Shown here: positions 6,828 to 56,200 of the stretch, piece after piece
Numbering within the stretch: position 1 is the first letter of the stretch
How the letters are laid out: each line of letters begins with the position of its first letter
NCBI RefSeq assembly: GCF_026151205.1
Contig: NC_087076.1
Coordinates: 5,012,902 to 5,074,901 of the forward strand
DNA length: 62,000 nucleotides
From: Bolinopsis microptera
Taxonomy: Eukaryota > Ctenophora > Tentaculata > Lobata > Bolinopsidae
Reading direction: 5' to 3'
The notes under the pieces: model-generated
The model's input: the letters and a program-made list of their open reading frames with translations, nothing else
Told to the model about the DNA's origin: nothing
The model's database searches: none
Made by a program: the position numbers and the translations under genes

Positions 6828-9800
6828 CTGAACATACAGGGTTAAATTTAAGTAATCAGTTTGTTAGTTTTTATATCTGACTATAAGTACTCAGCAGGTT
6901 TTATATACCTTTACCCTCTCTATTTTATAGTACATTGCTCCACGTGGCAACTAATTGCGATCATCATGCCCAAAAGAGGCGTTAGGAGGATTTTCTTGTA
7001 TATACGCACATTCTTAGGACTTAGGCATTCAGGATATGTCGCATACCAGTAATACAAGGATGCTACAGCAATCCACAGTAACAGTTAACACGTTTCGTCA
7101 AGAACGAAGATTTAGAAATACCTCCCTAATACCCACTCCCTGATCGCTACAGTGAGTATAACACAACAATAACAAGTCTCACTAACCATATATCAGCAGC
7201 AGTGGTAGAGACCCGCCCCTGCAGGAGCTCCGGAGCTGCAAACTCAGGGTCCAACATGCTGGGTTCTAGGAACACGTTCTCTTCGTCCACATAGTGGGCC
7301 AACTCGTAGTTTATTATCTGAATATGTGTCATTTTATTAGTGTCCACATAGTGGGCCAGCTCGTAGTTTATTATCTGAATATGTGTCATTTTATTAGTGT
7401 CCACATAGTGGGCCAGCTCGTAGTTTATTATCTGAAGATGTGTATTTTATTAGTGTCCACATAGTGGGCCAGCTCGTAGTTTGTTATCTGAAGATGTGTA
7501 TTTTATTAGTGTCCACATAGTGGGCCAGCTCGTAGTTTATTATCTGAATATGTGTCATTTTATTAGTGTCCACATAGTGGGCCAGCTCGTAGTTTATTAT
7601 CTGAATATGTGTATTTTATTAACGTTCCTTTCTTCAGTATTTGGGTTTACTCAACGGTAAAATGAGACTTATAGACTTCAAGTCTCAGCAAAAAGGTGAG
7701 TCTAAACTTATCTACCACATTCCAATAAGTGCTAATTTTAGGACTGTGCCAAAAACCAACACATTGGCTGATCACTAAGTTGTAAATAACTTACCTTTAC
7801 AGTGGTCTTATCCCAGATCAAGTTCTCAGGTTTCAGGTCCAGATGTGCGATAGAACGGGCGTGTAAATAAGACACTCCTTCCAGAACATTCTTTATAATC
7901 TCGATAGTCTCGTGCTCCTTGTTAGACTCCTTAAGAAGGAGGAAGTCCATGAGGGGTAGTTGGAACTGGTAGCTCATAATCAGCACAATACAGTTATCAT
8001 ACTGCAGGAGCACCTCGTGCAGTCTGCTGACCCGCTTGTAGTTGAGCTGCTGCAGAATATCCACCTCTCTCTGTATGGACCTGTAGAACTGTCTGTCCAC
8101 TACCGGGGTAACCTGCGCAGTGAACTTCAGCCCCGTTCTCTGGTGCTCACAGGTGCAGAACACCGAGAAGTGACCGTAAAATAGTATGTCAGTAAACTTG
8201 TAGCCAGACTGCAAGTTAGCTGAAGGGGGGGCCTGGGCTAGTGCTGCAGAGGGGTAGGTACTGTCCGGCTGACTCTGCGTGGCGGGGTGTTCACTGGGCA
8301 CTATCAGGTTGATGTGGTCTATACTCATTGAGATGTTACTGAGCTTAGAGATGCACCGGTCGTAGTTCTGCTCTGTTTTGTCCCTCAGTATATCCTCAGT
8401 GGGTATACGATTACTGGTTATGTAAGGCTGAGCCCAATCGCTCTGCTCAGATTCCTTTATTATATCGTCCTCCTTCAAACTTATTTTAGTTAATGATTTC
8501 CTTCGTTTGTGAAAGCGGAGAGAAGATCTGATTTTCTGATTAATACCCTTTTTGTTCTCTTCGTTAGAGTTGTTTGATCCCAAACTGCCCCTGTCCTTAT
8601 CTTTAGAGCAATACTCTATCCCCTGTTTAACAAACCTAGCCCACTCAGCTTTCTTGGACTGACTATCCGCACAAAAACAAAACTTTGTTGAATTGTTAGA
8701 AACTGAGAACCGGCAAGTTTCCTCCTCTACCAGGACACTAGCGTTTGCTAGATCTATAACATTCTTTGTAGAGTAAGATTTCAGTTTCTTCCCTTCCATT
8801 TCATGTTTCGCTAAAACAAGGCAGTGTTTGAATAGGAAGACTTGGCGCTGTTTGCCCTGACCCTGGATCCAGGCTGAACCGTTGATAACTGACAGCGAGT
8901 CCTGATGTACTAATTTATCATCTGGGGGATCCTCGAACATTTCTAAGTGCATGAGATTATTAGCCTTCCTGGGAACCTCTATCATCACATTATACGCCTC
9001 CTCTACCTGATCCAGGTTCTGTAGGTTACAACTCTTCCCAAACTTCAGGATCTCTGCTAACAGTAACTGATACTTGGTAATTCTCTGAACTGGCTTGATC
9101 AGGAAGGACGAAAGAGAGAAGTTCTGGTTGAGAATCTTCTGTATCTGCTCCATCTCGAGCTCGTGCTCGCTGTACACTGCCTCTGACTTGGGTTTGTTGA
9201 CGCAGTATTGCACGTGTAGATCGTACTTAGTGCGGTATTTAAGGAAGATTGCAGCCACTTTGATAGGGTCACCACCACATTGTAGCAGGTCGGGTAGGAA
9301 CAGCTCCCGGTGGAACTTGAATATCTCCTCAACGTTACCTGGTGGGGTGAGAATGTTATTATTATTATAGAAACTCAGCAAGTTTATTTGGTGACGTCAC
9401 TAACTTGTGACGTCCCTAAGTTGTTATATCCGCATTACAACATTAAAACCTTACAATCGTATCATGAGAAGTAACAGTAAGCACCTAATAACGTCTGGCT
9501 GACGACCCAGAGGCGATGTTTCATAAGATGAGCGGTATACTGCCGGACTATGAAGTTAAGTCCGGACACAAAGTCGTGTTCTGACTTGATCAGCTCCTCC
9601 ACTACTAGCTTCAGTCTCTTGTCGTCTCCACAAGTAGTCTTGTCAGCAGTAGTGGTCTGAGGTGGCGCTGCTGTTGCTGTTTTACCTTCCTCTGGCCAGC
9701 TCCACCGTGACTGGTAAATAGAGGTAGTTAGTATTAAACTAGTAGTAGTAGTTAGTATTATACTAGGTAGCATAATATGTCAACTATTTAGAATTATATC

Positions 9801-53200: not shown

Positions 53201-56200
53201 ATCTAAATTTTTCTCGGAAACAAATCAGTTGCTATTTAACAGTCGTCTGAGAAGCTTAATGTTTATATCTCCACGGTTATAAAGATACCACCCGCTCAGT
53301 CTGCCTTCCCACGACGCTAGTCACGTGGTACTTCTCTAGTCACGTGGTACCTTCTCTAGTCACGTGGTACCTTCACTAGTCACGTGGTACCTTCTCTAGT
53401 CACGTGGTACTTCTCTAGTCACGTGGTACTTCTCTAGTCACGTGGTACCTTCTCTAGTCACGTGGTACCTTCTCTAGTCACGTGGTACCTTCTCTAGTCA
53501 CGTGGTACGGTCACAACTATGCGTTTTATTCACTTTACTTTACAGATAGTTCTATAAACTCCTCCCTTATTAGCAGGATGATGTTTCCTACAACTGATAA
53601 CCATGAAACACCTGGCTACCTACCACTACCCAACTCAACTGCCTACCATTCCTATTGGAAGCTTTTTCACAACCTTCGGCAAAAGAGGTGGATGAAAAAG
53701 TAAGCGACTATAACTAATTTACTATCAGTAAGAATTAGATGTGCAATATATAATATATACATTATATCATATACATTATACATTATACGTGCATAATATA
53801 CGTTGGTTTGAGTTTCGCTACTCGTCGTGTTAAAGCTCCTAAGATAGAGGATACAGTGTGAAACAAGAAATGGTAGTTTGTTAACGCTATCCGTTATATT
53901 CACCTCATCAACAGCGAGGAAGAACTGTTTAGCGACGAGGATCTGGTCATGTTTGTCATGACACGTGGTGTGACGTCACACCACGTGTCATGACGTCACA
54001 CCACAGGTCACACGTGTGTATTGTAGTTTATTATATTCACCTCATCAACAGCGAGGAAGAACTGTTTGGCGACGAGGATCTGGTCATGTTTGGAAGTGAG
54101 CCGGGTGCTGAAGTGTGACGTAATGGTGACGTAATAGTGACGTAATAGTGACGTTATATTCACCTCATCAACAGCGAGGAAGAACTGTTTAGCGACGAGG
54201 ATCTGGTCATGTTTGGAAGTGAGCCGGGTGCTGAAGTGTGACGTAATTGTGACGTAATAGTGACGTAATAGTGACGTAATAGTGACGTTATATTCACCTC
54301 ATCGACAGCGAGGAAGAACTGTTTAGCGACGAGGATCTGGTCATGTTTGGAAGTGAGCCGGGTGCTGAAGTGTGACGTAATGGTGACGTAATGGTGACTT
54401 AATAGTGACGTTATATTCACCTCATCAACAGCGAGGAAGAACTGTTTAGCGACGAGGATCTGGTCATGTTTGGAAGTGAGCCGGGTGCTGAAGTGTGACG
54501 TAATTGTGACGTAATAGTGACGTAATAGTGACGTAATAGTGACGTTATATTCACCTCATCAACAGCGAGGAAGAACTGTTTAGCGACGAGGATCTGGTCA
54601 TGTTTGGAAGTGAGCCGGGTGCTGAAGTGGGACCAGGTGGATAACAGCGCCTCTTCGTTTAGCGTCTCCACCTTCTCACGTACTCCTGATACCTGGGCAA
54701 TTAGCTAATTAGGCAATTAGCTAATTAGTTAATTAGATAGTTGGTTAATTAATTATTTAGTTATATATCTCTACTATAATTCAGAGAATTATTTTTGTCT
54801 GTACAATGTTTGTACGACCGCCCACGTGCAAATCAGACGAGAAATAGGAATTTAGGTAACAACCAAAAGGTTCCATAGCAACGGTGTTTTAATGCACACA
54901 TGCACGTGCAAATACCTTATCGGACCTTATTTGGACGGACATTACTTGAACGCTGGAAGCCCTAGCGTTCATCTTAATGTCCGTTCAAATAAAGTCCGTT
55001 CAATTAATGTCCGTCCAAGTTGAAAGTCCGTTGAAATTTTTTCAAAAATTTTTCCATTTCGAACTTTTTGTCCAGAATATGACAACTTTGAGAACTTTAT
55101 TGTGCCGTAAGTTAACGACGGAAAGGTTCTCCTTGGTCTGCCGGAGGCACAGAAAACTCTACTAGTATATGATGTTTTCAAGGGTCACTTGTACTTGGCG
55201 GAAAAAATTCAACGAAATTATATTTATGGCACTTAACAACATATTTCATGAACTAGTCCCCGTCAACATGACAAACTTGTTCCAGCCTCTAGATATTACG
55301 GTAAATCGTGTTGCAAAGGACATTGTCCGACGTTGTTATAGCTCATATTACTCAGGGGCGTTAATGAAACAGTGCTAGGAAATCTCCACGTGATGTTAAG
55401 GTTAACCTTAAGTTGTCTAAGATAAAACCACTTCACGCCGAATGGCTTGTAAAAGTTAACACTGAAATGCAGGACCGGGGTAGTTTGATTAAAAAAAAGG
55501 TTTCCATAAAGCTAGAAATCACTGATGGACTATTTCATGCACGAAAACCCATTTGATGAAGATGATATGTGATATTAGAAACTGATCGTGTACACATATT
55601 TTAACATTTTTACTGCTTAATGACTGCTTTTCTTACTTACTGTATAAAAAATGGATTTAAAAATCATTTGCTGAAATTAAAAAAACGTCAAAACAATTGA
55701 AAAAAATTCGGATTTTTGATGGTTTTGAATGCCTTCGAGCGTTCATATTAATGTCCGTTCATAATTATGTCCGTTCATGTAATGTCCGTCCAAATAAGGT
55801 CCGATAAGGTATTGTTTTAACGTAATTTTTATCCGTTTTGTGGTAATTACGTTGTGTTTAAAGTGTTTTATATTTAAATCGGCTGTATCTTCGGTCGGGA
55901 TGGATCTTTTTTGATGCCATTAAAACTTTCTTTCAAAAAATACTATTAGCTTCGTCCCTGTTACCACGGGCTTTCTAGTATATATATATATATAATTACT
56001 AAATACGCGTACGGTTTGACAATTTATTAATAAATCGATCGTCAAGATCAAATCCAGCCATTTAGGTATAATTGGTTGTCATAAGCAGTTGATTACTAAT
56101 TATAGGATAATTAATTAATCAAGGATTATCAAGGAACAGATAATATTATCTTGCAAACTTACTTCGTCTAGAAAGGTAGTAAACTCGTTGCAGTATTTCT

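Follow-up and report, generated by a model that had tools for sequence, protein, structure and literature searches.

Several systems in which tandem repeats meet splice sites have been described. In human genes located in segmental duplications, De Grassi and Ciccarelli (2009; PMC2812944) identified internal tandem repeats at exon-intron boundaries, together with 27 intron modifications, and their Table 1 gives RNA support. A study of tandem arrays that carry introns with dual-specific splice sites, of the UBC type, counts 792 human introns within 262 tandem repeats (Duan et al. 2024; PMC10809524), and intron gain by tandem genomic duplication of an AGGT-bearing sequence has been presented (PMC2891723). 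According to the account of splice-site proximity rules by Carranza et al. (2022; PMC9225289), which describes Reed and Maniatis (1986), proximity across the exon decides between competing sites under exon definition, and proximity across the intron does so under intron definition. Here we describe minisatellites built on splice junctions, i.e., tandem arrays whose unit holds an exon edge, its splice site and adjoining intron, in a 62,000-nt stretch of the ctenophore Bolinopsis microptera (GCF_026151205.1; NC_087076.1, or C5, positions 5012902-5074901; the whole stretch is called the window) and in introns of conserved genes elsewhere in the same assembly (264.65 Mb, 232 contigs, of which C1-C13 are 15-26 Mb each).

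As in the human boundary repeats, minisatellite units of tens of bases span the boundary, and this was found for seven arrays of the window and for 11 of 267 introns elsewhere. The repeats described in PMC2812944, however, are variable, belong to recent paralogs and lead to alternative or novel introns, whereas here the genes are conserved, up to about 50 intact copies are present, and the exon-proximal site gives the protein. Tandem arrays multiply splice sites also in the UBC-type introns; as presented in PMC10809524, both intron ends lie in the array and intron length can be a multiple of the unit, while here only one end is included and the array flanks one exon. The AGGT duplications share with our cases a tandemly duplicated splice signal whose extra copy ends as intron, but the new intron of PMC2891723 arises inside an exon, and here an existing junction is multiplied, the other intron end is outside the array, and no new intron was seen. 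Competition among identical splice sites, with exon definition favoring the pair nearest across the exon, is common to the systems of PMC9225289; those are minigenes and human alternative sites, in contrast to the present natural arrays, in which between 2 and about 50 near-identical sites compete. The initial annotation of the window stated that no named system of this kind was known, which is too strong, since boundary repeats in human genes (PMC2812944) and introns inside tandem arrays (PMC10809524) have been published. In a literature search covering titles and abstract openings, we found no report of tens of intact copies of one splice junction, of a rate of about 4% of introns, or of anything equivalent in a ctenophore. 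Boundary tandem repeats are already known, and tens of intact junction copies in conserved genes are a new variant of them. On the sequence evidence, these arrays are probably ordinary minisatellites of a very array-rich genome, tolerated at junctions with exon-proximal splicing.

Tandem Arrays in the Window

Seven clear cases and a weak one had been proposed for the window. For each of the seven, Tandem Repeats Finder (TRF) gives an array at the proposed place that holds the exon edge and the splice site (Table 1; exon bases were derived from TRF edges and exon edges). The case of lectin exon a is marginal because its three bases (CAG) represent the donor consensus only. The weak case, an 18-bp array (11160-11212) at the acceptor of exon 3, is unsupported, as our exon model gives no exon there at a score of at least 9.

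Junctions were checked by reading, by the exon model, which uses splice sites and hexamers from other genes of the same genome, and by Pfam searches on joined exons. The exon model was blind to the claim and recovers the exons of the window, with exceptions in the exact start of two: exon 8 is started at an upstream acceptor copy, and lectin exon b at 31294, an alternative site within the array. These choices show the quality of the copies. When exons 7, 8, and 9 are joined at exon-proximal sites, a single continuous kinase match is obtained. The acceptors of lectin exons b and c are based on the exon model and reading phase; that of exon b is fixed at 31308 because, after the phase-0 end of exon a, translation from the alternative start runs into a stop. 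The Lectin_C match spans part of exon c and exon d, and backs the c-d junction only. The far edge of exon c is 31889 by reading phase, and 31893 was used in the splice-site crossing test.

In this test, arrays cross seven of the 37 hand-listed splice sites of the window, when 1.0 is expected under random placement (P = 2e-5) and 1.1 when the test is confined to the gene span (P = 1e-4). The rate is far above that of the sample described below (Fisher P = 5e-5), which is expected because the window was picked for junction arrays; the sample of 267 introns elsewhere is therefore the fairer test.

The 71-bp array of exon 2 is split by about 1.6 kb of unrelated sequence (14102-15725), which carries a 30-bp array of its own (17.5 copies) and has a T run on one side (minus strand); this resembles the insertion of an element into the array.

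Table 1. Arrays over splice junctions, and their host genes in the window. Numbers are window positions; a slash marks the exon-intron or intron-exon border; L numbers denote sample loci.
Feature	Location	Strand	Unit (bp)	Copies	Exon, junction and remarks	Exon bases within array
Exon 1 donor array	17541-17859	-	38	8.4	edge 17852, AACAAG/GTAATT	8
Exon 2 donor unit, distal block	12371-14101	-	71	24	TRF, reading	
Exon 2 donor array, proximal block	15726-16293	-	71	8	exon 16258-16439, AATAG/GTACGT	36
Exon S2 donor array	53892-54633	-	123/134	five intronic copies aligned	exon 54555-54692, GATGAG/GTGAAT	79
Kinase exon 8 acceptor array	7285-7621	-	57	6	exon 7187-7318, ATTCAG/ATAATAAAC	34
Lectin exon a donor array	30751-30815	+	21	3.1	exon 30651-30753, AAACAG/GTAACA	3
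Lectin exon b acceptor array	30885-31314	+	61	7	exon 31308-31441, CCGCAG/GATCCT (reading phase)	7
Lectin exon c acceptor array	31562-31813	+	50	5	exon 31780-31889 (reading phase), CACCAG/GTTACA	34
Donor array	L022		38	2		
Donor array	L049		53	2		
Donor array	L016		33	53		
Donor array	L032		53	8		
Donor array	L036		35	25		
Donor array	L086 (dynein)		55	2		
Donor array	L101 (dynein)		65	12		
Donor array	L100		18	35		
Acceptor array	L022		21	25		
Acceptor array	L037		49	29		
Acceptor array	L027		73	46		
Host gene, exons 1-9	6467-17973	-			RhoGEF, PH and protein kinase (exon model, Pfam); exon 1 start uncertain	
C-type lectin-like gene	30651-32442	+			exons 30651-30753, 31308-31441, 31780-31889, 32046-32126 (about), 32327-32442 (by reading)	

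Sample of Introns Elsewhere in the Genome

The sample was constructed from consecutive exons of conserved genes (myosin, CCT, kinesin, three dynein regions, cullin, adaptin, RhoGEF, ABC membrane, and UCH) found by profile searches of the genome, and GT-AG junctions were called by profile continuity, frame, and splice-site score. From the profile tables, 315 of 369 rows in the first batch and 126 of 194 in the second were used; rows were omitted by eye when they were isolated or single-exon hits or near-identical local duplicates, and, chiefly for UCH and ABC, other hits were omitted of which some had neighbors. Among 282 exon pairs, four in two near-identical paralog regions were omitted, and 11 of the 278 examined were dropped as uncalled or scoring below 6, so that 267 introns remain. 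Regions were picked before the sequence was seen, and the sample was extended after the result of the first batch, in which 8 of 188 introns had junction arrays against 3.8 expected; the second batch gave 3 of 79. These families are not a random gene sample, kinesins contributing 58 of the 267 introns.

An array was taken to cross a junction when its unit was at least 15 bp and at least three exon bases were included, and copy number was calculated as cluster length divided by unit. Arrays spanning the exon edge and the splice site were found in 11 introns (4.1%, confidence interval (CI) 2.1-7.3%), at eight donors and three acceptors, and 2.1% of splice sites are crossed (CI 1.0-3.7%). Units are 18-73 bp and copies 2-53, with two copies only in three cases. 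All 11 arrays cross only one end of the intron. The array cluster accounts for more than half of the intron in seven cases, and intron length without the array is 131-273 bp in five. Seven of the 11 belong to kinesin genes.

Arrays with a period of at least 15 cover 16.4% of intronic but 1.1% of exonic bases, and this low exonic coverage is a mark of selection against arrays in exons. Two arrays were flagged as exonic (L061 and L002); the profile matches there contain stops, which probably reflects an unseen intron. Array ends crowd the acceptor ends of the sample introns, with 13 of 81 arrays ending in the final 30 bp and not entering the exon.

The two dynein cases (L086 and L101) are paralogous heavy chain genes with unrelated arrays on the donor of introns at approximately the same place. 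These introns follow the motif RTVAMMVPD or RPVAMTLPD, and five other dynein introns of the sample nearby have no array.

Concerning chromosomal position, junction arrays occur in 6 of the 57 introns that lie no farther than 2.3 Mb from a contig end and in 5 of 210 elsewhere (P = 0.014, with the cut set after seeing the data); distance alone gives P = 0.14, and subtelomeric clustering was rejected. Clustering by gene was also rejected, since the 11 introns fall in nine gene clusters, as expected (P = 0.25).

Splice Sites and Reading Frame of the Copies

Copies were analyzed for 18 arrays (seven of the window and 11 of the sample) and found in 17. The scan is incomplete, giving 16 copies in L016 (51 aligned by gapped alignment), 19 at exon 2 (30 aligned), and none in L086. 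In all 17 arrays with any copy (seven in the window and 10 elsewhere), copies are present only on the intron side, with none on the exon side, as had been noticed for the window. The scan yielded 250 intronic copies, of which 246 retain GT or AG and 247 exceed a score near the 5th percentile of genuine sites; up to about 50 intact duplicate splice sites lie beside the real one. Some copies outscore the true site in five of six acceptor arrays; in all copies found at exon 2, the donor is slightly weaker than the true one (7.8 vs. 9.0). Since 246 of 250 copies keep GT or AG, the choice of site must be by position.

If a copy were used, the frame would be shifted or stopped in 14 of the 18 arrays and would stay open in the other four. 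With exon-proximal splicing, an open frame across the junction and the order of the profile are kept in all 11 sample introns; stops away from the junction are found in three spliced products (L027, L086, and L022), at places where the profile match reads across another intron or reaches its edge. In the kinesin products, for instance, the junctions run through the motif SSRSHA and adjoin the motifs SGKT and DLAGSE. As read from the genome, the junction is tandemly duplicated, growth is toward the intron only, copies are intact, and the exon-proximal site gives the conserved protein.

The exon share of the unit is 0.11-0.96 and uniform over the 18 arrays (Kolmogorov-Smirnov P = 0.49; window values of exon bases were entered by hand from the reading and differ from TRF edges by at most five bases). 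Because the junction falls anywhere in the unit, a mechanism with a fixed register, such as one using lariat or reverse-splicing products, was rejected. The view that these are independent expansions is supported by the unrelated units.

Chance, Tolerance, and Excess at Donors

The initial annotation offered two readings, namely tolerance of arrays that keep the splice site and a mechanism aimed at exon-intron borders. We favor tolerance. In this reading, a tandem duplication would arise by chance over a few tens of bases and straddle an exon-intron border; the exon copy and its splice site would stay put and the extra copies would land in the intron, which should be nearly neutral while the exon-nearest site is used. 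The array may then grow into the intron by slippage or unequal exchange, and the spliceosome would pick the exon-proximal site by exon definition. Exon-proximal splicing that gives conserved protein, the uniform junction position, and random placement, which predicts about half of the cases, support tolerance. The border mechanism was not demonstrated, and we do not accept it in general, because crossings are not in excess at acceptors and are hardly so in short introns; at donors and for long units, on the other hand, there is an excess.

This excess weighs against tolerance alone. In a first null, the founding duplication of each of the 81 arrays was placed anywhere touching an intron, pooled or within each intron. 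The 11 crossing arrays compare with 5.2 (pooled, P = 0.011) or 6.0 (within-intron, P = 0.023) expected, and among arrays of at least four copies, 8 of 35 cross against 3.3 (P = 0.011) or 3.6 (P = 0.014). For units of at least 30 bp, 9 of 21 cross when 2.8 (P = 0.0006) or 3.1 (P = 0.0004) are expected; when at least four copies are also required, the count is 6 of 18 against 2.5 or 2.7 (P = 0.02). A second null uses the local density of array edges near junctions. For both ends together it gives 5.0-6.6 (P = 0.014-0.071). The overlap of arrays and splice sites, a check which the initial annotation had suggested genome-wide and which was run here on introns of conserved genes, is in excess at donors and not at acceptors: eight donors are crossed against 1.9-2.5 (P = 0.001-0.004), and an acceptor excess is absent in the 267 introns (3 vs. 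3.2-4.1). When introns are grouped by length without the array, five are crossed against 4.1 expected below 300 bp, two against 0.7 at 300-700 bp, three against 0.6 at 700-1500 bp (five against 1.3 for 300-1500 bp), and one against 0.5 above 1500 bp. The median unit of junction arrays is 49 bp, while 32 bp is expected from size bias (P = 0.05), 8 of 11 junction arrays are longer than 400 bp against 4.3 expected (P = 0.012), and the rate in the window, 7 of 37 against 1.0, points in the same direction. Simple tolerance predicts neither the excess nor the longer units and larger arrays. Chance duplication with tolerance accounts for about half of the cases and the donor excess remains; however, since P values are uncorrected over several tests and 7 of 11 cases are in 58 kinesin introns, this excess is suggestive only.

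The rival that draws on this excess is a bias of duplication to 5' splice junctions, in which some property of transcribed borders, such as R-loops, stalled forks, or nucleosome edges at donors, would raise the frequency at which long-unit duplications begin there, in addition to tolerance. The counts for donors and for units of at least 30 bp favor it, as do the unrelated arrays of the two dynein paralogs. The same analyses also oppose it: acceptors lack an excess, short introns have almost none, the long-unit excess drops with four or more copies, the cases are concentrated in kinesins, the P values are uncorrected, and no fixed register is present. We consider this bias rather unlikely. It is likewise doubtful that long-unit duplications in this genome are founded by a process linked to transcribed 5' splice junctions, which would provide a few per cent of introns with tens of perfect duplicate sites, among which the choice would be made by exon-adjacent position alone.

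Selection could also keep the copies as splicing aids, serving as spare sites, as landing pads for U1 or U2AF, or as recursive splice sites. Among copies, variation at the splice motif is slightly lower than elsewhere in the unit (circular-shift P = 0.028 with gapped alignment, over the 13 arrays of 14 that show variation; this test replaced an ungapped one with P = 0.009 because indels inflate variation). We regard this difference as weak, since it is slight and stems largely from donors that do not vary at all, and in four of six acceptor arrays the motif is more variable than the whole unit. The sequence AG/GT, which could serve as both donor and acceptor, is present at 10 of 18 junctions by hand count (8 of 12 donors and 2 of 6 acceptors) but is frequent in the consensus of this genome regardless, and unequal exchange keeps young arrays alike without selection. 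Maintenance as splicing aids is thus improbable.

The same AG/GT junctions would be compatible with nascent introns, or with arrays of dual-specific sites that remove themselves, as in polyubiquitin UBC; splicing from copy to copy would then excise whole units. As 8 of 18 junctions are without AG/GT and no sample intron has both ends in one array, this has very little probability. A misidentification of exons, with repeats confined entirely to introns or untranslated sequence, is hardly credible: junctions were read from sequence alone, lectin exon a has an overlap of three bases, exon 1 is of low complexity, and the S exons match the spectrin profile weakly, but kinesin, cullin, and dynein sequences cross junctions in frame and in profile order, so that the 11 sample junctions are hard to reconcile with it, the kinase domain is continuous through exon 8, and splice-site scores are within the range of other introns.

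Host Genes and Neighboring Sequences

Tandem arrays occupy 26% of the window in 66 array clusters (TRF). The nearest solved relative of the host gene is TRIO (E = 5e-34). Exons S1 and S2, located farther upstream, give a weak match to a spectrin profile (E = 0.03, below the cut-off) and are presumed to be part of this RhoGEF/kinase gene. The lectin gene (Lectin_C match in Pfam, E = 4e-8) is present on the opposite strand between the S exons and the RhoGEF-PH-kinase exons, and, if S1 and S2 belong to the host gene, it is nested within a host-gene intron; nested intronic genes are described for another ctenophore in PMC8527503.

Reading frames resembling retroelements (endonuclease- and reverse-transcriptase-like, by eye only) are found at 41618-46112 and 48533-51499, and arrays with an 11-bp unit near GGGTTAGAGTG are present at 41318, 46536, and 52470, close to the ends of these frames. 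A 61-bp array of more than 50 copies with 98% identity (58343-62000) reaches the end of the window.

Implications for Splice-Site Choice

These introns represent a natural form of the duplicated-splice-site experiment: the correct product is known, from 2 to about 50 near-identical sites compete, and splice-site choice is directly testable. The arrays are also one route to rapid intron lengthening, as the cluster exceeds half of the intron in most sample cases. With intron definition, the advantage should go to the copies closest to the opposite end of the intron, and their use would mostly break the frame and the protein, so that arrays should persist only with exon-proximal choice. Their tolerance in introns that are short without the array (5 of 11) argues for exon-proximal choice in this lineage.

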